DNA of 40,586 bases. Origin: Acidobacteriota bacterium. Its GTDB lineage: Bacteria > Acidobacteriota > Terriglobia > Terriglobales > Acidobacteriaceae. A program made the position numbers and the translations under genes. Positions 2,098 to 39,515 of the stretch are shown here, piece by piece. Every line of letters begins with the position of its first letter. Positions within the stretch are counted from its first letter, which is position 1. The DNA is taken from assembly GCA_023265315.1 (NCBI GenBank), contig JAHFUA010000003.1, positions 38,670-79,255 of the forward strand, read 5' to 3'. The notes under the pieces were generated by a model that worked only from the letters and a program-made list of their open reading frames with translations, ran no database searches and was not told where the DNA came from.

Positions 2098-3453
2098 ATG
2101 AGGATTCTCGCACACAGCACATCAGTCATCCTGCTATCGCTTCTATCGTCATGCCTGGCGGTGGCGCAGGCCCCGCAGCAAGTAGCCAGGATCGAGGTGA
2201 CCGAGGGCCCGACGATCACCTACCTAGATGACCAGTTCGCCGTGGTCGCCTGGACCACCAGTGCTCCCACTGAGAGCCGCGTGTTCTACGGCAGCGACGC
2301 CGAGGACCTGAACCAGGTGGCGGAGTCGATGAAGGCGACCACGGCACACCGCGTCGATCTCCGTGACCTGAAGCCGGACACCACCTATTACTTCCAGCTC
2401 GACACCGGCGACGCCACCGAAGCGCCCGTGCTGCAGTTCCGGACCGTGGCTGCGGGTGGCGCTCCGCTGCATCGCCAGCAGCCGACGCCGGTGGCGAACT
2501 CGCAACCGCCGCCGGCGCCCGGCGTGACCATCACCCGCGGGCCGACCATCGAATTCGCCGACGACCGCTCGGCGGTGATCTCTTGGACCACCAGCGCTGT
2601 CGCGCCCAGTGTGGTGTATTACGGTACGAACCGCAACGACCTCTTCCAGACTGCGGAAGCGGGCGGCACCTCCACCTTTCATCGCCTGCACCTCTCCGGC
2701 CTGCGGCCGGCTACCACTTATTTCTTTCTTGCCGAGTCCGGACAAGCGCAGCCGACAGGACAGATGAACAGTTTTGAGACGGCGGCCGCAGAGGGCGCAC
2801 CAATCTACAACCAGCGGCCGGCGGCAGCGGCCGGCAACGCTGCTGCGGTAGCCGGTCGTCCCCCGGAAAGCCGGTCGCGGCGTCGCGGCGACAAAGAAGT
2901 GCCGGCTGGGGTTGAGATCGAGGCTACGCTGCAAGACGAGCTTTCCACTAAGACCTCCCAGTATGGCGACAAGTTTACCGCCATCGTCAGCCAGCCGGTG
3001 AATGCCAGCGACGGCTCGCGGGCCATCCCCGCAGGGTCGAAGATCACGGGCGAGGTGATCGAGGTGGAGGAGGGCAGGACCGTCGCCGTATTGCGCGGGC
3101 GCGGCAAGCTCAACCTGCGCTTCCGTGACCTGATCCTGCCCGACGGGACCACCATCCCGCTGAATGCCACCCTGGTGTCGGTTCACAACATGAAAGCCAA
3201 CGAGGAAGGGCAGGTGCAGGCCGGGATTGGCGGCAAGACCGTAGCCAAGGATGTGGGCATCGGCGCGGGCTTGGGCACGGTAGCCGGCCTGATCTTCGGC
3301 AGTGCCCTCAAAGGTCTGGCCATCGGCGCCATCGCTGGCGGCGGATACATGATCGCCACTAAAGGCAAGGACGTCGAGATCCCCGCCAATTCCGGCATGA
3401 AATTGCGCCTGGAGCAGACCCTTTACGTGCCGGCGCATAGCGGCGGCAGGTGA
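2098..3453 (+). CDS. Secreted protein: two fibronectin III-like domains plus glycine-zipper beta domain
   Basis: A 451-aa exported protein. The signal peptide (about 1-23) ends at AVAQA. Two tandem beta-sandwich repeats follow, about residues 36-115 and 150-228. Each has the pattern GPTI..D..AVV/ISWTTS..S.V.YG..R/H.L.L..L.P.T.Y.F, which resembles fibronectin III or the N-terminal domain of purple acid phosphatases. A Pro/Ala-rich linker leads to the same beta domain and glycine zipper as in the neighbouring lipoprotein (GVEIEATLQDELSTKT..GDKFTAIV..IPAGSKITGEV; zipper about 385-420). The ATG is preceded by GAGGTGAGGA. No phosphatase domain is present, so the repeats are probably adhesive or structural. 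It is divergent from the lipoprotein gene. Confidence 0.88.
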   Translation: MRILAHSTSVILLSLLSSCLAVAQAPQQVARIEVTEGPTITYLDDQFAVVAWTTSAPTESRVFYGSDAEDLNQVAESMKATTAHRVDLRDLKPDTTYYFQLDTGDATEAPVLQFRTVAAGGAPLHRQQPTPVANSQPPPAPGVTITRGPTIEFADDRSAVISWTTSAVAPSVVYYGTNRNDLFQTAEAGGTSTFHRLHLSGLRPATTYFFLAESGQAQPTGQMNSFETAAAEGAPIYNQRPAAAAGNAAAVAGRPPESRSRRRGDKEVPAGVEIEATLQDELSTKTSQYGDKFTAIVSQPVNASDGSRAIPAGSKITGEVIEVEEGRTVAVLRGRGKLNLRFRDLILPDGTTIPLNATLVSVHNMKANEEGQVQAGIGGKTVAKDVGIGAGLGTVAGLIFGSALKGLAIGAIAGGGYMIATKGKDVEIPANSGMKLRLEQTLYVPAHSGGR

Positions 3454-10222: not shown

Positions 10223-11644
<1,422 letters not shown>

Positions 11645-11659
11645 CAAACGAGCCGGATC

Positions 11660-12256
11660 TTGCTTGAGCTCACCACCGCCGTTGCCGATTTCGCCGCGGC
11701 CTTCAAGGCCGTAGACAGTTCCTCTCCCCAGGGCAGATTCAGAGACCGCGTGTATTCCCCCGGGATTGGTCCTTTAACCGAAGAAGAGGCCGTCCGCCGC
11801 GCAGTACTGCACTTGCAGCAGATCCGGCCCGAGGTCTACAGGTCTGCTGCACCTAGAAATTACCCGAACGATCGACGGAAATGCGATCTCGTAATCCCGG
11901 GAGAGTGGGCTTTCGAGTTCAAGCTGATTCGACCGTTCGGCGACAACGGCAAAGAAGCCGAACACTGGTCGGAAAACATTCTCCATCCGTATCCGGGTTC
12001 AACGAGCTCCGTGGGCGATTGCATCAAGCTGCTGACGTCGCAATTCACCGAGAGGCGCGCAGTAGTCGTATTTGGGTACGAGCACGACCCTCCACAGTTA
12101 AACCTCGATATCGCTGTGAGCGCCTTTGAATCAATCGTTACGCAAGTTCTGCGCATCAAGCTGGGACCCCGTTGTTTCAGCGAATTCTGCGGTTTAATTC
12201 ACCCGTGTCACCAAAAGGGCAAAGTTTTCGGCTGGGAGATACTGAAGGCCGCCTGA
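11660..12256 (+). CDS. Uncharacterised protein with PD-(D/E)XK nuclease-like signature
   Basis: A 198-aa protein I cannot assign to a family. Residues 75-88 read CDLVIPGEWAFEFK, that is Asp76 then Glu86-x-Lys88 at the ends of two predicted strands. This is the arrangement of the PD-(D/E)XK nuclease fold. A later strand RAVVVFGYEHD would fit the same core. The start is uncertain: TTG at 11660 lies 15 nt after the selA stop. Codon use is less GC-biased than in the flanking genes, which suggests recent acquisition. It may be co-transcribed with selA, but nothing links it functionally to selenium. Confidence 0.6.
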   Translation: MLELTTAVADFAAAFKAVDSSSPQGRFRDRVYSPGIGPLTEEEAVRRAVLHLQQIRPEVYRSAAPRNYPNDRRKCDLVIPGEWAFEFKLIRPFGDNGKEAEHWSENILHPYPGSTSSVGDCIKLLTSQFTERRAVVVFGYEHDPPQLNLDIAVSAFESIVTQVLRIKLGPRCFSEFCGLIHPCHQKGKVFGWEILKAA

Positions 12257-12355
12257 GGGACTCGGCCCGCCGCTTCGTTTGACAGCCCTGCTGCTGCCCA
12301 GTAACCTTTTGGTACCGGCTGAAGCGGGGGCTTCGCTGACATCATCTAATCTCCT

Positions 12356-13342
12356 GTGAATTATTGGCGACAACTCGTGCGGCTGGCAGGCGCCATGCAA
12401 CTTCTGCCCGCGCTTGAAAGCGGCAACGAGACGCTGGTGGGCGGGCAGGCGGTGCTGGAGGGCGTGATGATGCGCTCGCCGCATGCCTGGGGGATTGCCG
12501 TGCGCAGGCCCTCGGGCGAGGTGGCGACGCACTCCGAGCCCATCGAGCGGCCGTCGGAAAAACGCAAATTCTGGGCGTGGCCGCTGCTGCGCGGGCTGGC
12601 CACGCTGGGACAGGCGATGTCGCTCGGCTTTCGGGCCCTGCGCTACTCCGCCAACGTCGCCCTGGACGCCATCCCGCGCGAGGAGCAGGAAAAGAAAGTC
12701 GAGATCAGCGGCTGGGTAATGGCGGTCAACATCCTGTTCGCGGTCGGGTTCTTCGTCTTCATGTACAAATTCGTGCCACTGGTGGCGGCCACCGAGTTGA
12801 AGCGGGTCTCGCCGGCGTTCGGCAACCAGATCGTTTTCAACCTGGTGGATGGCGCCATTCGCATCGCGCTGTTCCTGCTGTTCATCTGGGCGATCTCGCT
12901 GTGGAAGGACATCCGCCGCGTGTACCAATACCACGGGGCGGAGCACAAGACGGTGTTCGCCTTCGAGTCCGGCGACCCGCTGACGCCGGCCGCGGTGCAG
13001 AAGTACTCGACCTACCACCCGCGCTGCGGCACCAGCTTCCTGATGACCGTGCTGCTGATCTCCATCGTGTTTTACACCTTGATCCCGGTAACCACATTCT
13101 GGGCGCGGTTTGCCATCCGCATTGCGCTGCTGCCGGTGATCGCGGGCGTGTCGTACGAGATCATCCGCTACGCCGCCAAGCACCGTGGCTCACTCTTCGC
13201 CCTGATGACGGCTCCCGGCCTGTGGCTGCAGCGGATCACCACTCAGCCTCCGAGCGACGACCAGGTGGAATGTGCTATCCGCGCGCTGGACGAAGCCATG
13301 GCGCTCGAGAAGCAACGCGGCGGCGAGCTGGTGATTGCCTAG
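12356..13342 (+). CDS. DUF1385 family membrane protein (YqhQ-like)
   Basis: A 328-aa integral membrane protein of the DUF1385 family. The family hallmark VGGQAVLEGVMMRSP lies near the N terminus. Several transmembrane stretches follow (VMAVNILFAVGFFVFMY, IALFLLFIWAISLW, TVLLISIVFYTLIPVTTF). The conserved cytosolic motif YHGAEHKTVFAFESG and HPRCGTSFL are present. Function is unknown. The gene is found beside prfA and prmC in many bacteria, as it is here. The start is GTG at 12356; an in-frame ATG at 12395 is an alternative. Confidence 0.9.
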   Translation: MNYWRQLVRLAGAMQLLPALESGNETLVGGQAVLEGVMMRSPHAWGIAVRRPSGEVATHSEPIERPSEKRKFWAWPLLRGLATLGQAMSLGFRALRYSANVALDAIPREEQEKKVEISGWVMAVNILFAVGFFVFMYKFVPLVAATELKRVSPAFGNQIVFNLVDGAIRIALFLLFIWAISLWKDIRRVYQYHGAEHKTVFAFESGDPLTPAAVQKYSTYHPRCGTSFLMTVLLISIVFYTLIPVTTFWARFAIRIALLPVIAGVSYEIIRYAAKHRGSLFALMTAPGLWLQRITTQPPSDDQVECAIRALDEAMALEKQRGGELVIA

Positions 13343-13395
13343 CGGCTGGCGCCGCGAACTTTCTCCCTGCTGTAAACTCTGTGGCGCAAGTAAGA

Positions 13396-13507
13396 GGTCG
13401 TCGGCCTTCGGTCCCGTCGCTGCGCTCAGGCAGGCTAAAATCAGTCGCCGGCCAAAGCTGGCGCGGACGAGGCTCATAACGGCCGACGACCGAGAGCCGA
13501 CGACGAC
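13396..13507. repeat. GTCGTCGGC inverted-arm repeat upstream of prfA
   Basis: The left arm begins GGTCGTCGGCCTTCGGTC at 13396. The right arm GGCCGACGACCGAGAGCCGA runs from 13481 into GACGACGAC and stops three bases before the prfA ATG at 13511. This leaves no room for a normal ribosome binding site. Related copies are at 10116, 14589 and 28592. Confidence 0.75.
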
Positions 13508-13510
13508 TTT

Positions 13511-14587
<1,077 letters not shown>

Positions 14588-14588
14588 G

Positions 14589-14738
14589 GGTCGTCGGCTG
14601 TCGGCCCTCGGTCGTCGGCCACAACGATCCTCGCCGGCGCCAGCTTAATTGTTGGTCGTCGGTTCTCAATCACGGCCAACGCGGGCGCAGACGAGACTCG
14701 TCGCGGCCGACGACCGACGACCGAAGGCCGACGACGAC
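14589..14738. repeat. GTCGTCGGC inverted-arm repeat between prfA and prmC
   Basis: The left arm runs from 14589 (GGTCGTCGGCTGTCGGCCCT and a further GGTCGTCGGCC). An internal copy, TTGGTCGTCGGTTCTC, starts near 14650. The right arm ends GGCCGACGACCGACGACC..GACGACGAC at 14738, three bases before the prmC ATG. It fills the whole intergenic gap. Confidence 0.75.
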
Positions 14739-14741
14739 CTC

Positions 14742-15578
14742 ATGCAGCTCAAGCAAGCCCTCACAGCAGCCATCGACACGCTGACGGCCAATGCCGTCGG
14801 CTCGCCGCGCATGAATGCCGAGACGCTGCTGATGTTCGTGCTCCACTCCGACCGCGCCTACCTCTACGCCCACCCCGAGTACGAACTCACCGCCGATGAG
14901 CAGGCGCGCTACGACGAGGCCGTCGCCGAGCGCTCGACCGGCAAGCCGGCGCAGTACATCACCGGCCACCAGGAATTCTGGGGTATGGACCTGATCGTGT
15001 CGCCCGCCGTGCTGATCCCGCGTCCCGAGACCGAGCACGTGATTGAAACGGTGCTGGAGCTGGCGCGGACGAAGCAGGCGCCGCGCATCGTGGACGTGGG
15101 CACCGGTTCAGGCTGCATCGCGCTGGCGCTGGCGGCCGAGCTGCCGTGGGCGCGTGTGGAAGCGGTGGACATCTCGCCGGCTGCGCTGGAAGTGGCACGG
15201 GCGAATGCTGCCCGGCTGCAGTTGGATCATCGCATCATCTTTCAGCAGCGCGATCTGCTGGCCGGGGCCCCGGCTGCGACCTACGATGTCGTCGTCTCCA
15301 ACCCGCCCTATGTTCCCGAGTCGGAGCCGGAAAAGGCGCAGCGCGAAGTGCGCGAGTTCGAGCCCAAGGTGGCAGTCTTCGCCGGCGAAAGCGGGCTAGA
15401 GGTCTACCGCCGCCTGGTCCCGCAGGCGCACGAAGCGCTGAAGCCAGGCGGCTGGCTGGTGGTGGAGATCGGATACTCGATCGAACGCGCCGTGCACGAG
15501 TTGGTGAAGGATTGGGCGGAGGTGCGGATTACGCCAGATTTGCAGGGGATTCCGAGGGTCGTCGCAGCGCGAAGGTGA
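14742..15578 (+). CDS. prmC: Release factor glutamine methyltransferase
   Basis: A 278-aa SAM-dependent enzyme that N5-methylates the Gln of the GGQ motif in release factors. The N-terminal helical domain contains NAETLLMFVL. A Rossmann methyltransferase core follows, with the SAM motif VDVGTGSGCIALALA and the catalytic NPPY at residues 187-190 (VVSNPPYVPES). It lies directly after prfA, its substrate gene. I chose the ATG at 14742; an open frame extends further upstream, but there it only translates the repeat. Confidence 0.97.
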   Translation: MQLKQALTAAIDTLTANAVGSPRMNAETLLMFVLHSDRAYLYAHPEYELTADEQARYDEAVAERSTGKPAQYITGHQEFWGMDLIVSPAVLIPRPETEHVIETVLELARTKQAPRIVDVGTGSGCIALALAAELPWARVEAVDISPAALEVARANAARLQLDHRIIFQQRDLLAGAPAATYDVVVSNPPYVPESEPEKAQREVREFEPKVAVFAGESGLEVYRRLVPQAHEALKPGGWLVVEIGYSIERAVHELVKDWAEVRITPDLQGIPRVVAARR

Positions 15579-15599
15579 TCGCGAGCACAAGCAAAAGCA

Positions 15600-15651
15600 G
15601 GTCCCTCGACTCGGACCGGGATAGGGCGCCCGGTCCTCGCTCGGGATGACA
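15600..15651. repeat. CCCTCG/CGCTCGGGATGACA hairpin repeat
   Basis: Lies in the convergent gap between prmC and purF. GGTCCCTCGACTCGGACCGGG is answered by CCCGGTCCTCGCTCGGGAT. The TGACA end matches the ends of the 124-nt repeat at 21541 and 30725. It could act as a weak bidirectional terminator, but it lacks a T run. Confidence 0.5.
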
Positions 15652-15668
15652 ATTCCAGAATTAAGACC

Positions 15669-17093
15669 TTACTCCCGCACCGGCTCTTCCGCCGGCTTGA
15701 TCTCCTCGACATCCACAAACGCCGTCGGATACTTGCCGGTGTAGCAGGCGGTGCAGTAGGTGAGAGACTCGCTCTCGCCGCAGGCTTGCTTCATGCCTTC
15801 GAGCGAAAGATAGGCGAGCGAGTCGGCGTCGATGTATTCGCGGATCTCTTCCACGCTCTTGTTGGCGGCGATGAGCTGCTTCTTGGAGGGCGTATCCACG
15901 CCGTAGAAGCAGGGGGAGATGGTGGGCGGGCAGGAGATGCGCAGGTGCACCTCGCGAGCGCCGGCGTCGCGCACCATGCGCACGATCTTGCGGCTGGTGG
16001 TGCCGCGCACGATGGAATCGTCGATCAGCACCACCCGCTGGCCCGCCAGCACGCTGCGCACCGGGTTCAGCTTGAGCCTGACCCCGAAATCGCGCACCCG
16101 CTGCTCCGGCTCGATGAATGTCCGCCCGACGTAGTGATTGCGGATCAGTCCCATGCGCAGCGGGATGCCGCTCTCCGCCGCGTAGCCCATGGCCGCGGCT
16201 ACGCCGGAATCCGGCACCGGCACGACGAGGTCGGCTTCAGCGGGAGCCTCGACCGCCAACTGCCGCCCCAGCTTCTCGCGGCTTTCGGCCACCGAGCGCC
16301 CGAAGATCACGCTGTCGGGCCGCGAGAAATATACGTGCTCGAAGATGCAGCTCGATTGCGCGGTCTGGCTGGCGAAATAGCGCGAATAAATGCCTTCGGG
16401 GCCAACCACGAGCATCTCGCCGGGGTTCACGTCGCGCTCGTAGGTCGCGCCGATCAGGTCGAAGGCGCAGGTTTCGGAGGCGAAGACGATGGTGTCCTTG
16501 CGCACGCCGCCGGCAATCCGTCCCATGGAGAGCGGACGGAAGCCGCGCGGGTCGCGCACCGCGAACACCCGGTCGCGGCTCATGATGACCAGCGAAAACG
16601 CGCCCTCGATCCGCCGCAGCGCGTCAGCGATGGCCTCAGGCAGCGTCTGCTCGCGCGACTGCGCCACCAGATGGACGATCACCTCGGTGTCGCTGGTGGT
16701 CTGGAAGATCGAGCCTTGGGCCTCGAGGCGCGAGCGGATAAGCTGCGCGTTGACCAGGTTGCCATTGTGCGCCAGCGCGATCATGCCCTTGTTGCAGTCC
16801 ACCATGATGGGCTGGGCGTTGAGCAGCGCCGAATCGCCGGTGGTCGAGTAGCGGGTGTGCCCAATGGCCAGCGTGCCCTTGAGTTTCTCCAGTACGTCTT
16901 CGGAGAAGATGTCCACCACCAGGCCCATGGAGCGGTGCGCGTACATGGTCACGCCATCGGTGGAGACGATCCCCGCCGACTCCTGGCCACGGTGTTGCAG
17001 CGCGTGCAGCCCGAGGTAGGCGAGCTTGCCCGCCTCCGGGTTGGAGTAGATGGCGGCCACGCCGCATTCGTCTTTGAATTTGTCGAAGGCCAT
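15669..17093 (-). CDS. purF: Amidophosphoribosyltransferase
   Basis: A 474-aa enzyme for the first committed step of purine synthesis (PRPP + Gln to phosphoribosylamine). The Ntn-type glutaminase begins at Cys10 (DECGVAAI) after a nine-residue propeptide that should be removed. The PRPP site is VVLIDDSIVRGTTS. Cysteines in SSCIFEHVYFSRPDS, CPPTISPC and CTACYTGKYP match the Bacillus type, which carries a 4Fe-4S cluster. It follows purL on the same strand, separated by 50 nt of repeat. Confidence 0.97.
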   Translation of the reverse strand: MAFDKFKDECGVAAIYSNPEAGKLAYLGLHALQHRGQESAGIVSTDGVTMYAHRSMGLVVDIFSEDVLEKLKGTLAIGHTRYSTTGDSALLNAQPIMVDCNKGMIALAHNGNLVNAQLIRSRLEAQGSIFQTTSDTEVIVHLVAQSREQTLPEAIADALRRIEGAFSLVIMSRDRVFAVRDPRGFRPLSMGRIAGGVRKDTIVFASETCAFDLIGATYERDVNPGEMLVVGPEGIYSRYFASQTAQSSCIFEHVYFSRPDSVIFGRSVAESREKLGRQLAVEAPAEADLVVPVPDSGVAAAMGYAAESGIPLRMGLIRNHYVGRTFIEPEQRVRDFGVRLKLNPVRSVLAGQRVVLIDDSIVRGTTSRKIVRMVRDAGAREVHLRISCPPTISPCFYGVDTPSKKQLIAANKSVEEIREYIDADSLAYLSLEGMKQACGESESLTYCTACYTGKYPTAFVDVEEIKPAEEPVRE

Positions 17094-17095
17094 AA

Positions 17096-17143
17096 GGCTC
17101 CTGGCTTCTGGCTCCTAGCTAGTGGCTAGTAGCTAGCAGCTAA
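17096..17143. repeat. Quasi-repeat array (word CTAGCTAGT / GGCTCCTGG)
   Basis: Tandem degenerate 7-8 nt words: GGCTCCTGGCTTCTGGCTCC, then TAGCTAGTGGCTAGTAGCTAG. It occupies essentially the entire purL-purF junction and reaches the purL stop codon. The TAGCTA words are self-complementary, so the array can fold on itself in the transcript. Confidence 0.65.
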
Positions 17144-19465
17144 TCAACTTCGCTCCAGCACCGACGGCGCCACCTCTTCGGCGGCCTCCACCCGCAGCGC
17201 CCGCTCCAGGGCGCCCGCCCAAGCTTGCTTCAGCTCCGCCACGGCGGCTGCGACCACTGGCCGGCCATCAACCAGGATTTCGATGTTCTCGGGAACGGTC
17301 TCGCCCAGCACATCCGCGGCGATGCCGCATTCTACCCCTAATTTTTGGATTCGCCCGACGTGCTCGCGGGCGCAGGAAATCAGGATGCGACTCGCATCCT
17401 CTCCGAACAGCAGGAACTCTGGCGCGAGGCCGCTCGAGACCAGCTCGATGCGCGCTCCCACGCCATTGAGGAAAGCGGATTCGGCCAGCGCGACCGCCAG
17501 CCCGCCGTCGGAACAATCGTGCGCTGACTCGGCCAGTCCCTGCTGGATCAGCTCGACGATGCATTTCTGTAGCGCCGCTTCCTTCTCCAGTTCCAGCGCG
17601 GGCGGGAATCCCCACACCGCGCCGAAAATCTCCTTGGCGTACTCGGAGGAACCGAACTCGGCCTCGGCATCGGTGGCATCGCCAGGCTCGGCGCCGCGCA
17701 GCAGCACCACGGACCGCCCTGGCCCGCGGAACTCGAAGCTCGCCGTCTTCTCGACCTCGTCGATCACCCCCACCACGCCCACAACCGGCGTGGGATAAAT
17801 CCCCTCGCCCAGGGTTTCGTTGTAGAAGCTAACGTTACCGCCGGTGATGGGAATTTCGAGCTCTTCGCAGGCGCGGGTCATGCCGTCGATCACCTGGGCG
17901 AACTGCCACATGATCTGCGGCTTCTCGGGATTGCCGAAGTTCAGGCAGTTGGTGGCCGCCACCGGGGTTGCGCCCGTGCACGCCACCTTGCGCGCCGATT
18001 CGGCGACCGCGTGCATGGCGCCCAGCCGCGGATCGAGCCAGCACCAGCGCCCGTTGCCGTCGAGCGCCATGGCCAGCCCGCGCTTGGTGCCCTTGACGCG
18101 GATCACGCCCGCCTCGCGCCCCGGTCCCTGCACGGTGTTGATCTGCACCATGGAGTCGTACTGCTCGTGCACCCAGCGCTTGCAGCAGATGTTGGACGAA
18201 GCCAGCAGGCGCTTGAGATTCGCGGTCAGATCAGACGTTTGACCCAGGCGGATGGATGCCGGCATCTCGCGCTCGACCGGCGGCTTCCAACGCTCCATGG
18301 GGCGGCGATAAAGCGGAGCATCATCGGTGAGGGCGGCATTGGGAATCTCGGCCACCACGCGCCCGTGCTCCAGCACCCGCATCTTGCTGTCAGGGGTGAC
18401 GCGGCCGACGATCACCGCGTCCAGACCCCATTTCTCAAAGACGCGGAAGACCTCGTCCTCGCGGCCCTTCTCGGCCACCAGCAGCATGCGCTCCTGCGAC
18501 TCGCTGAGCATGATCTCGTAGGGCGTCATGCCCGTCTCGCGCTGCGGGACGCGGTCCAGCTCGATCTCGATGCCGACGTTGCCACGTCCGCCCATCTCGC
18601 AGGTGGAGCAAGTCAGGCCGGCGGCGCCCATGTCCTGAATGCCGACCACGGCGCCGGTGCGCATGGCCTCCAGGCAAGCTTCCAGCAGCAGCTTTTCCAG
18701 GAAGGGATCGCCCACCTGCACGTTCGGCCGCTTCTCCTCCGAGGCTTCGCTGAACTCCTCGCTGGCCATGGTGCAGCCGTGGATGCCGTCGCGGCCCGTT
18801 TTGGCGCCCACGTAGATGACCGGATTGCCCTCGCCCGCGGCGCGCGCGTAGTAGATCTCGTCGCGCCGCACCAGCCCCAGCGCGAAGGCGTTCACCAGCG
18901 GGTTCTGCGAGTAGCAGGGCTCGAACTTGGTCTCGCCGCCGACGTTGGGCACGCCAAAACAGTTGCCGTAGGAGGCGATGCCGCTCACCACGCCGTCCAG
19001 GATTGAATGATTGCGGCGGATGGTGGCCTGATCGGCGCCGCTGGTGATTGGCCCGAACCTGAGCGAATCCATGATGGCCACTGGCCGTGCGCCCATGGTG
19101 AAGATGTCGCGCAGGATGCCGCCCACACCCGTGGCCGCTCCCTGGAAGGGCTCGATGAAGGATGGGTGGTTGTGCGACTCGATCTTGAAGGCGCAGGCCC
19201 AACCGTCGCCGATGTCGATGATGCCGGCGTTTTCCCCCGGTCCTTGCACCACGCGGCGGCTGTGCGTGGGCAGGCGCTTGAGGTGCACGCGCGAGCTCTT
19301 GTAGGAGCAGTGCTCGCTCCACATCACGCTGAAGATGCCCAGCTCGGTGATGGTGGGCTCGCGTCCCAGCCATTTCAAAATGCGCTGATACTCTTCCGTG
19401 CTGAGGCCGTGCTCCTGGATGAGGTCGGGAGTGATCGCCTGAAGAATGTCGGGGGATGATGGCAT
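17144..19465 (-). CDS. purL: Phosphoribosylformylglycinamidine synthase subunit II
   Basis: A 773-aa ATP-dependent enzyme of the small PurL type, which works with PurQ and PurS to convert FGAR to FGAM. Seen are [60 protein letters not shown], and the second half with [11 protein letters not shown] and [12 protein letters not shown]. The ATG at 19463-19465 gives the usual N terminus; an open frame continues upstream for about 76 codons but has no family similarity. It is the first gene of a purL-purF unit. purQ and purS are not in the window. Confidence 0.97.
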
Positions 19466-19557
19466 ATGAGTACGGCCTATTCTCGCACATCGGCGCGGCC
19501 GCGTTGACATGGAATCAACCTCGGCTGCCACACCCGCATTCGGCTGCTTGAAGCATG

Positions 19558-19563
19558 TACACT
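19558..19563 (+). promoter_or_regulatory. Candidate -10 hexamer for selB
   Basis: TACACT ends 8 nt before the selB ATG at 19572, the same near-leaderless spacing as selA and moeA. No convincing -35 was found at 16-18 nt. Confidence 0.35.
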
Positions 19564-19571
19564 GTCGCTCG

Positions 19572-21464
19572 ATGAAATCCGTCATCGTCGGCACCGCCGG
19601 ACACATCGACCACGGCAAAACCGCGCTGGTTAAAGCGCTGACCGGTATCGACGCCGACCGCCTGGCGGAGGAAAAGCGCCGCGGCATCACCATCGATATC
19701 GGCTTCGCCCACCTCCAGCTTGCTGGGCCCGACGGCGAGCCCTTGCGACTGGGCTTCGTGGACGTTCCCGGTCACGAGCGCTTCGTGCGCAACATGCTGG
19801 CCGGCGTGGGCGGCATCGACCTGGTGCTGCTGGTGATCGCCGCCGATGAATCCATCAAGCCGCAAACCCGCGAGCACTTCGAGATCTGCCGCCTGCTCAA
19901 CATTCCCCGTGGCATCACCGTGCTCACCAAGGCCGACCTGGTAGACCGCGAGACCCTGGACGTGGTGCGCCTGGAAGTCGAAGACTTTCTGCGCGGGTCT
20001 TTCCTGGATACAGGCCAGGCGCCCATTGTTCCGGTCAGCTCGCTCACCGGCGCCGGCATCGCCGACCTCAAACGCGAGCTGGCGCGCGTAGCCGCCGAGG
20101 TACCCGCAAAGAGCGCCGCTTCCGTCTTCCGCCTGCCCATCGACCGCGTCTTCACCATGAAGGGCTTCGGCACGGTGATCACCGGGACGCTGATCTCCGG
20201 CGCCGTGCGCAAGGAAGAAGAAGTGGAGGTGTTTCCGCTTGGCCGGCGGGCCCGCGTGCGCGGCGTGCAGGTACATAATCGTCCCGCCGAGCAGGCCGCC
20301 GCCGGCGAGCGCACCGCGCTCAACCTCGCCGGCTTTTCTCCTGATGACCTGGTGCGCGGAATGACTCTGGCTGCCCCCGGGCTCTTCCGCTCCACCAGCC
20401 GGCTCGACGTCTCGCTGGCGCTGCTGGCCGGAGTGCGTCCGCTCAAAGACCGCGCCCGCGTGCACTTTCACGCGTACACGTTCGAGACCGTCGCCGAGAT
20501 GGTGTTATACGAGGGCAAGGAAGTGAAGCCCGGTCAAAGCGCGCTGGCGCAACTGCGATTGCAGGAGTCCACGCTGCTTTTTCCCGGCGACCGCTTCATC
20601 CTGCGGCAATTCTCCCCGGTGGTGACCATCGGCGGCGGGGTGGTGCTGGAGAATCAGCCGCAGCGGCTGCCCAAGACCGCATACCGGACGTGGTTAACAA
20701 CTCTGGCCGATGGCTCACGCGCCTCGGCGCTTCACGCCCGCGTCGTCGCGCGCGCGGAGAGAGGGCTCACGCTCTCCGACGCTATCGCTCGGACCGGCTG
20801 GCAGCGTGCGGAAATCGAATCGCTGCTGGCGGCGATGCCCGACGTCGGGCGCGCTGGGCCAACCTGGGTCCACGACGCCGCTTTGAACCGGCTGCGGGCA
20901 GGTACCCACACCGCGCTCGACAACTTTCACACCCAGAACCCGCTCTCGCCCGGGATGAGCCGCGAGGAACTCAGGAAGCGCTTTCCCGAAGTGCTGCCGG
21001 AGGTCTTCGAACACGTGCTGTCGCAGCTTGTGCAGGAGAAGAAACTCGAACTCTCGGGCGAGCTGGCGCGCCTGGCCGGGCGCGGCGTGGTCATGAAAGA
21101 CGAGGAGGCGGAGGCCAAAAAAACCATCGAGAGCGCCTTCTCCACCGCCGGTCTGAAAGTTCCTTACCTGAAAGATGTGCTTGCCGGCCTGCCCGTGGAC
21201 AAAGCACGCGCGCAGAAGATCGTCACGCTGCTGCTGCGCGATAAGGTGCTGATCAAAGTCTCCGACGAGCTGGTGTTCCATCGCCAGGCGCTGGACGGCC
21301 TGCGCAAGCTGGTGGCCGAGCAGAAAAAGAAGACGCCGAAGATCGACGTCGGCGCCTTCAAAGACATGATCGGCGTAACCCGCAAATACGCTATCCCGCT
21401 GCTCGAGTACCTGGACCGCGAACGCGTCACCCGCCGCGTGGGCGACCAGAGAGAAATCCTTTAG
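19572..21464 (+). CDS. selB: Selenocysteine-specific translation elongation factor
   Basis: A 630-aa GTPase that delivers Sec-tRNA to UGA codons marked by a SECIS hairpin. The G domain shows GHIDHGKT (10-17), [10 protein letters not shown] (38-46), DVPGH (64-68) and TKAD (119-122). These are followed by EF-Tu-like domains II and III ([20 protein letters not shown]) and the long C-terminal winged-helix region (about 350-630) that binds the SECIS loop, ending [20 protein letters not shown]. The ATG at 19572 gives the canonical N terminus. A probable selenoprotein gene lies immediately downstream in the convergent direction. RF1 in this window does not compete for UGA; RF2 would. Confidence 0.98.
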
Positions 21465-37598: not shown

Positions 37599-37623
37599 GG
37601 GCTTAGTCTGCATTTCCTATCAG

Positions 37624-37779
37624 GGTGGAGCAGGCCTTTTAGGCCTGCAATCAGGCAAGCCCAAGATTATGGGCTTTAGCCCTGAGGAACTCTAATAATT
37701 GCACCGAGAGTGAACCCTCAGCGGCTAAAGCCGGAGGCCATTGATGCCCTACTATGCAGGGCTGAAGCCCTGCTCCACC
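37624..37779. repeat. Palindromic interspersed repeat, copy B
   Basis: A 156-nt element bounded by GGTGGAGCAGGCC..AGGCCTGCA and TGCAGGGCTGAAGCCCTGCT..CCACC, with interior GGGCTTTAGCCCTGAGG and CCTCAGCGGCTAAAGCCGG modules. It shares ends and module types with 1027-1197. It fills the gap between moaC and the peroxiredoxin gene. Confidence 0.8.
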
Positions 37780-37843
37780 CCAAAGCGATCCGACACCATG
37801 ATCCCGGTAAAATCGTGCCCTGAGACGTGTCGCCCTCCATTCG

Positions 37844-38299
37844 CTACTTCTTCAACTCAGCCAGCACTTCTTCCGCGTGTCCATCCGCCTTGACCTTGGG
37901 AAACACATGCGCCACGCGGCCCTGGGGATCGATCAGAAAGGTCGTGCGCTCGATGCCCAGCACGGTCTTGCCGTACATGTTCTTCTCTTTGAGCACGTCG
38001 AAGGCCTTGGCCACCTTTTTGTCCGGGTCAGAGAGCAGGGTGAAGGGCAATTCGTATTTTTCCTTGAAGCTCTTCTGCGCTTTGGGCGAATCGGGCGAAA
38101 TGCCCAGCACCACCGCTCCGGCCTTCTGGATCTTGCTGTATGCGTCGCGGAACCCGCACGCCTCGATGGTTCACCCCGGCGTGTTGGCCTTGGGGAAGAA
38201 GTACACCACGACAGTCTTTCCGCGATAATCTGTTAAGGAGACACTCTGGCCGTTCTCGTCGAGCAGAGTGAATTCAGGGGCTTTTTCTTTGACGTCCAT
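37844..38299 (-). CDS. bcp: Bcp/PrxQ-type peroxiredoxin selenoprotein, Sec43
   Basis: A 151-aa peroxiredoxin if the TGA at 38171-38173 is read as selenocysteine. The N-terminal part reads MDVKEKAPEFTLLDENGQSV and VYFFPKANTPG. Then comes Sec43 in place of the peroxidatic Cys, followed by TIEACGFRDAYSKI, which keeps the resolving Cys48 at +5 as in E. coli Bcp (Cys45/Cys50). The rest (VLGISPDSPKAQKSFKEKY, LLSDPDKKVAKAF, GIERTTFLIDPQGRV) is a normal Bcp. The two halves are in one frame and equally conserved, so this is not a pseudogene. It reduces peroxides in the cytoplasm. A standard caller would keep only the C-terminal 89-90 residues. Confidence 0.9.
38142..38161 (-). promoter_or_regulatory. 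Bacterial SECIS hairpin in the bcp mRNA
   Basis: In the mRNA the stem GCGUGCGG pairs with CCGC-g-ACGC (8 bp with one bulged G) around the loop GUU. The stem starts 9 nt after the UGA and the loop G is 17 nt after it. A loop beginning GU and a bulge in the stem are features of the E. coli fdhF SECIS that SelB contacts. Confidence 0.75.
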
Positions 38300-38309
38300 C
38301 GGACATTAT

Positions 38310-39515
38310 TTGTACCGCAAACGCTCACGATTCGCCATCCTCGCGCTGGTGGCGCTGTTCGCAAGCCTCTCGGTTGCACAATCGCGCAAGAAGGAGAAAG
38401 GGCCGCGGGCCCTGGCCGTGGTCGAGCTGCCTGCCGATGCGAAGTCGAAGCCGCGCCTGATTCCCCTCGCGATCCTGGTTGACGGCCGCTTCTGGGACGC
38501 CTCCATCTACCTCGCCGATCCGCGGCCGATGGCGCTCGATCCCGGCAACGTGTACGAAGTGGAGCGCAGCGGCAAACCGGTGGGTTTTTTCACGGTGAGC
38601 GAGGCCCGCGCGGTGAAGGACCGCTGGATCGCGTTCGGCGACTGGCAGCCGGAGTCGGAAAAGCCTCCGGCGGCTTCGAAGTCCGCGAAGTCCCGCAGCG
38701 CCGAGGACGATGAGCGCCCGGTGCTGCACAAGAGGCAATCTTCCACTTCCGCTCAGGAAACTCACTCCGCTCCGGAAGCCGCGACTGCGGCGCCTGCCCC
38801 GGCTCCGCCGCCACCGGACGATCCCAACCGTCCGGTGCTGCGCCGAGGCCGGCCGAAACCGCAGCCACCAGAGCCTCTGGAGGAAGACCGGGAGACCGGC
38901 AGCCCGTCCCAGCCGCAGGCCGCGCAATCCGCCGCTGCCTTCAAGGTGGTAGAAGTGCTCCCGGCGATCTCCGATGCCGGCGGCCCCGAGCCGCGTCCGT
39001 ATGCCTACGCATGGGCGCCCGAGGAGCAGCAGAAGCTGACCAAGGCGATCTCCGACATCGCCACCGCCGAGGTCGCGCGCTACGTCAAGAACACTCCCGC
39101 GCTGCGCTTTGTGCCGCGAGCGACCTTCGACCAAATCGTGATCCGCGCCTTTGACCTCGACTACGACAACAACCCCGAGATCGTATTCACCGCGCGCGTC
39201 CCCGCAGTAGCGCCGCCAGCCACGCGCACGCGCGCCGCCAGGCCATCGCCGCCTATGCCGGACTTTTTCTTCTACGTCACGGTGGTCGGCGAAACCGATC
39301 TCTACGGCCAGATGCGCAAGCTGTTCAGCTCCGTCACCGACAGCGCCCATCTCGACGTCTTTCCTCGGCTGGAACTCATCGATGCCGTGGATGCCGAGGG
39401 CACGGGCCGCGGCAACCTCCTGTTCCGCGCCGCGAGCCGCGACACCTCCACCTACCAGCTCTACCACGTCGGCCCCGACTCGCTTCGCAAGCTCTTTGAC
39501 AGCGCAGGAGAATGA
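38310..39515 (+). CDS. Exported protein of unknown function
   Basis: About 401 aa; I do not recognise the family. The start is probably the TTG at 38310, giving a signal peptide (KRSRFAILALVALFASLSVAQS); an earlier GTG at 38268 overlaps the divergent bcp gene. A small N-terminal domain (about 30-115; PRLIPLAILVDGRFWDASIYL, VYEVERSGKPVGFFTV) is followed by a Pro/Ala/Glu-rich linker (about 125-220). A C-terminal domain follows (about 230-400; FVPRATFDQIVIRAFDLDYDNNPEIVFTA, FFFYVTVVGETDLYG, TSTYQLYHVG). The Asp-rich DLDYDNNPE looks like a calcium-loop or FG-GAP type element, but this is a guess. Confidence 0.75.
   Translation: MYRKRSRFAILALVALFASLSVAQSRKKEKGPRALAVVELPADAKSKPRLIPLAILVDGRFWDASIYLADPRPMALDPGNVYEVERSGKPVGFFTVSEARAVKDRWIAFGDWQPESEKPPAASKSAKSRSAEDDERPVLHKRQSSTSAQETHSAPEAATAAPAPAPPPPDDPNRPVLRRGRPKPQPPEPLEEDRETGSPSQPQAAQSAAAFKVVEVLPAISDAGGPEPRPYAYAWAPEEQQKLTKAISDIATAEVARYVKNTPALRFVPRATFDQIVIRAFDLDYDNNPEIVFTARVPAVAPPATRTRAARPSPPMPDFFFYVTVVGETDLYGQMRKLFSSVTDSAHLDVFPRLELIDAVDAEGTGRGNLLFRAASRDTSTYQLYHVGPDSLRKLFDSAGE

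Follow-up and report, generated by a model that had tools for sequence, protein, structure and literature searches.

Peroxiredoxins (Prx) with selenocysteine (Sec) at the peroxidatic position are an established bacterial selenoprotein family. A study of the Sargasso Sea published in 2005 found 43 Sec-containing Prx genes, which belong to COG1225 and carry the motif TXXU (PMC1088965). The available part of a 2006 survey gives counts of 12 and five Cys-to-Sec events, and it reports four selenoproteins of three families in Acidobacteria, the families not being named in that part (PMC1794560). Later reviews list Prx, with the motif TxxU, as COG1225 (Bcp) (PMC9312934) and as PF00578 (PMC13188914). 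Another Sec-containing peroxiredoxin is PrxU of Eubacterium acidaminophilum (NF040737). In animal glutathione peroxidases, which are enzymes of a different family, Sec has been proposed to make the resolving Cys dispensable (PMC8614756).

The gene described here lies in a stretch of acidobacterial DNA of 40,586 nucleotides, which is referred to as the window. As far as the available text of these sources goes, it belongs to the same family as the bacterial Prx selenoproteins, with a peroxidatic Sec and a T-P-G-U sequence that fits TxxU (PMC1088965, PMC1794560, PMC9312934, PMC13188914), and here too a bacterial SECIS is predicted downstream, Cys homologues are widespread and Sec and Cys have been exchanged repeatedly. 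Sec-containing Bcp is a kind already known and the window gene is a further case; the novelty implied by the first-pass annotation was overstated, as the TxxU Sec-Prx family is described in the portions of the literature at hand (PMC1088965, PMC1794560, PMC9312934). Many Sec sisters of the window gene differ from the described proteins in that they lack the resolving Cys. A Terriglobia-type Acidobacteriota lineage of Prx selenoproteins was not found described in the available text of the Prx selenoprotein literature cited. Vertebrate Sec glutathione peroxidases resemble many relatives of the window gene in having a peroxidatic Sec and having lost the resolving Cys (PMC8614756, PMC5981252), but they form another thioredoxin-fold family and are eukaryotic, and the window protein retains its Cys48.

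The bcp/prxQ gene of the window

The features of the locus and of the associated Sec-decoding genes are collected in Table 1. The first-pass annotation had placed the gene correctly but gave no strand; the plus-strand reading of the interval yields no peroxiredoxin, and it is the minus strand that carries the gene, from 38299 to 37844. It has an ATG start and, once TGA is read as U, a single unbroken frame of 151 residues (MDVKEKAPEF...FFPKANTPGUTIEACGFRDAY...ELKK) with U43 and, five residues past the Sec, Cys48, the only Cys of the protein. The TGA is at the peroxidatic residue and the downstream Cys is intact, just as had been claimed. The sequence ahead of the ATG shows no obvious ribosome-binding site.

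Table 1. Features of the window relevant to the Sec-containing peroxiredoxin
Feature	Coordinates	Strand	Basis
Probable bcp/prxQ selenoprotein gene	37844..38299	minus	151 codons + TAG stop; translation with TGA=U
Codons 36-40, P36 and T40 of motif PxxxTxxU	38180..38194	minus	invariant in 156/156 orthologues
UGA codon 43, probable selenocysteine at peroxidatic position	38171..38173	minus	TGA in 49, TGC/TGT in 107 distinct orthologues
Codon 48 (TGC), resolving Cys, inside predicted SECIS stem	38156..38158	minus	Cys in 107/107 Cys forms, 30/49 Sec forms
Predicted bacterial SECIS hairpin, GCGUGCGG-GUU-CCGC(G)ACGC	38142..38161	minus	folds; group comparison
Codon 118, catalytic Arg (R118) of peroxiredoxins	37946..37948	minus	invariant in 156/156 orthologues
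selA, L-seryl-tRNA(Sec) selenium transferase	10223..11644	plus	TIGR00474 565.5 bits; PF03841 453.4 bits
selB, Sec-specific elongation factor, C-terminal winged helices	19509..21464	plus	TIGR00475 378.3 bits; PF09106, PF09107, PF25461

A search of the 151-residue product against PrxQ/Bcp models, as had been proposed, returned a full-length match to the Bcp equivalog NF006960 (thioredoxin-dependent thiol peroxidase) over residues 4-150 with 169.8 bits, the curated cut-off being 140 bits, and this bears out the claim that a whole Bcp is present in one frame. The Pfam AhpC-TSA model also matches the read-through product above its curated cut-off (149.3 bits). The PrxU subfamily (NF040737) was rejected since the window protein reaches 51.4 bits where the cut-off is 270. 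The AlphaFold model of the window protein has a pLDDT of 94.6, and its best fold matches in the PDB are Bcp/PrxQ proteins with TM scores of 0.93-0.97. The nearest solved structures by sequence, from Burkholderia ambifaria (5enu) and Xanthomonas campestris PrxQ (5iiz/3gkm), show ~46% identity, TM scores of 0.93-0.95 and the same P-T-(C/U)-R site; they differ in having Cys at the peroxidatic position. The PxxxT/SxxC motif and the catalytic Arg are present in the window protein (P36, T40, U43 and R118), with Sec replacing Cys.

On the plus strand, a divergent open reading frame without a Pfam match extends over 38268-39515 and has a signal-peptide-like start near 38313. With only some twelve bases between this start and the ATG of bcp, the divergent frame must share sequence with the bcp promoter. 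On the other side of the gene, between moaC and bcp, is an imperfect 16-nt inverted repeat, GGGTGGAGCAGGCCTT / AAGCCCTGCTCCACCC (window 37623-37780), whose arms are 126 nt apart.

UGA at codon 43 and its probable decoding as Sec

A Bcp match is found in 99 of 100 genomes of the same taxonomic family. When the best match per genome is scored, TGA falls exactly on codon 43 of an orthologue that is otherwise intact in 36 genomes, far beyond chance, and the remaining matches have TGC or TGT there. Addition of a second collection (record titles all Acidobacteriota) and removal of identical copies gave 156 distinct orthologues, of which 49 have UGA at codon 43 and 107 a Cys codon. The latter are the Cys homologues at position 43 that the first-pass annotation had proposed to look for. 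Two genomes from another family of the phylum (L201 and L202) also have UGA-43 and the same hairpin.

A single TGA, which is one base from TGC and TGT, would be explained by a sequencing error or by a Cys codon that had mutated to nonsense in a decaying gene; the genome is a 182-contig assembly, and one relative (L142) has the TGA without the hairpin sequence. The same TGA, however, recurs in the 49 distinct orthologues, from many genera and another family, and UGA forms are strictly linked with selA. Downstream of the UGA, the window gene and its near kin differ by 25-38 synonymous and 19-21 non-synonymous codon changes, with the full frame and the catalytic Arg kept. Codons after the UGA are conserved across dozens of genomes, which excludes the decay of the downstream frame that had been named as the case against a selenoprotein. 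A pseudogene or an assembly error is refuted by the conservation of the UGA and is considered highly improbable.

The genome encodes a full Sec-decoding system (selA, selB, selC and selD). The tRNA-Sec (anticodon TCA, 70.8 bits) is found elsewhere in the same genome, as is selD (L199, 418-1362, minus strand; G000:C181), which has its own in-frame TGA near the start, at U11 of the matched stretch, and probably encodes a selenoprotein as well. Within the window (10223-21464), selA and selB are ~8 kb apart and a PurL-like gene lies on the opposite strand directly before selB; hence the two are not in one operon. Every one of the 36 UGA-43 genomes carries selA, and Cys-43 is found in each of the 33 scored genomes that lack selA (Fisher p = 1.6e-9, counting genomes and uncorrected for kinship). 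selB is present in 34 of the 36 UGA-43 genomes, the exceptions (G028 and G070) being fragmented assemblies. Since many selA-positive genomes carry the Cys form of Bcp, the Sec machinery is necessary but not sufficient for the UGA form.

The frame is open whatever the TGA encodes, and a code change or general read-through could insert an amino acid other than Sec. TGA is nonetheless an ordinary stop in the window, where it ends selA, moaC and other genes, and therefore the code is not changed. The complete Sec machinery of the genome also argues against this alternative, as does the presence of Cys, the expected counterpart of Sec, in every orthologue without UGA. With both selA and the hairpin tied to the UGA forms, insertion of another amino acid was rejected and is hardly credible.

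The evidence for a SECIS element comes from comparison of the two groups of orthologues. The apical loop GUU of the predicted hairpin (38151-38153, minus strand), which is 17 nt after the UGA, is found in 48/49 Sec forms vs 21/107 Cys forms. Mean local folding energy is -10.6 kcal/mol in UGA forms and -6.0 kcal/mol in Cys forms (p = 3e-20). Codon 49 (Gly49) is GGG in 44/49 UGA vs 5/107 Cys forms and codon 47 is GCG in 38/49 vs 10/107, a bias through which the constraint imposed by the hairpin is directly visible. Taken alone, the window hairpin has no stability excess over dinucleotide shuffles in single-sequence folding, and comparison with synonymous resampling gives p = 0.12. RNAalifold on 16 Sec forms returned no covarying pairs and a different consensus fold because the register and bulge of the stem shift between the Cys48, Ser48 and Arg48 subgroups. 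At gathering thresholds, Rfam matches no SECIS family in the window and detects only tRNA-Pro. The arrangement of a bacterial SECIS, a hairpin shortly after the UGA with a G in its apical loop, is found here without strict covariation support, and it is solely the comparison of Sec with Cys groups that gives the predicted hairpin its strong support.

Two relatives depart from this division. L063 (3001-3450, codon 43 at 3127-3129) is a Cys form (TGC) that still carries the SECIS-like GCGTGCGGGTTCCGCGAC; its sister on the starred branch, L065, has UGA. Sec was likely exchanged for Cys recently in L063, leaving a fossil SECIS, and the available part of the 2006 survey reports remnant SECIS elements after such exchanges in other families (PMC1794560). 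L142 (G053:C28:62350-62910) combines TGA at codon 43 with codons of the Cys type and lacks the GGGUUCC hairpin; this would reflect either a different form of SECIS, a nonsense change of very recent date or an error.

The gene in the window very probably encodes a functional Bcp/PrxQ-type peroxiredoxin with selenocysteine as its peroxidatic residue. This reading is based on the conservation of the UGA, with Cys orthologues at the same codon, the decoding machinery, the association with the hairpin, the fold and the catalytic residues, and it upholds the central proposal of the first-pass annotation.

Loss of the resolving cysteine and proposed catalysis

All 107 Cys orthologues have Cys at position 48. 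The UGA orthologues divide at this position into 30 with Cys, 10 with Ser and nine with Arg. Cys48 is thus absent from 19/49 Sec forms vs 0/107 Cys forms (Fisher p = 1.5e-11, uncorrected for kinship), and 11 of the 19 Ser48 or Arg48 forms are without any Cys. More distant paralogues in which Cys43 is combined with a His or Arg at position 48 have Cys79 instead, and this residue occurs in no Sec form. Among the sequences compared, a resolving-type Cys is always kept by Cys peroxidases, at one place or the other, and is often missing from Sec forms. With residues 43-54 left out, a protein tree (139 columns) is poorly resolved, and on it characters 43 and 48 each change at least 11 times. Its well-supported branches give five independent pairs, in which Cys48 was lost on the Sec side in 2-4 and never on the Cys side; a test of independent loss on these five pairs, which is under-powered, is not significant (p 0.125-0.5) and its direction is suggestive of Sec-linked loss. 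As judged from the sequences, Sec-linked loss of Cys48 is a statistical pattern, and the count of its independent occurrences is only poorly resolved.

These comparisons make it moderately probable that in acidobacterial Bcp a peroxidatic Sec makes the resolving Cys dispensable, and that this Cys was lost several times, only in Sec forms, giving rise to one-Sec, Cys-free peroxiredoxins. Alternatively, Cys48 could be a passenger in enzymes that are one-Sec peroxidases throughout, with codon 48 kept or changed chiefly through its position in the SECIS stem. The 19 Sec forms without Cys48, 11 of them Cys-free, would agree with this, as would the Ser and Arg codons that accompany a shifted register of the stem and the proposal that Sec removes the need for a resolving Cys in glutathione peroxidases (PMC8614756). 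Cys48 is nevertheless kept in 30/49 Sec forms, including that of the window, and a change from Cys to Ser or Arg is a large one for a protein indifferent to the residue. The passenger role is possible but doubtful. As the hairpin stem contains codon 48, RNA constraint may also shape residue 48 alongside dispensability of the resolving Cys. In the literature searched, no peroxiredoxin was found described as having lost its resolving Cys in connection with Sec, which is weak evidence given the incomplete coverage; the novelty of the present case, if any, may lie in this Sec-only loss of Cys48.

We infer the incorporation of Sec, the chemistry and the reductant of the window protein as follows. 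Judging by the gene set and by what is known from E. coli, SelA would make Sec-tRNA(Sec), and SelB, directed by the hairpin just past UGA-43, would carry it to the ribosome at that codon. The selenolate of Sec43, held by T40 and R118, would attack the peroxide and become a selenenic acid, which Cys48 would most likely resolve to a Sec43-Cys48 selenenylsulfide that thioredoxin could then reduce. In the Ser48 and Arg48 relatives, direct reduction of the selenenic acid would have to come from an external thiol, as it does in the glutathione peroxidases of vertebrates. The Sec form would be expected to be more reactive than the Cys form.

Implications for acidobacterial peroxiredoxins

With this lineage, a known selenoprotein family gains many natural exchanges between Sec and Cys. 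Close sisters differ at the peroxidatic residue (L063 with Cys and L065 with Sec; L036 with Cys and L066 with Sec), and therefore the benefit of Sec to a peroxidase is directly testable. Gene callers that take no account of Sec would presumably truncate the enzyme to 42 residues or miss the gene in many acidobacterial assemblies. That the resolving Cys has been lost on one side only suggests a concrete hypothesis, namely that a peroxidase with Sec no longer needs a resolving thiol of its own. If this is true, acidobacterial Bcp would parallel, in another family, what has been proposed for the glutathione peroxidases of animals.
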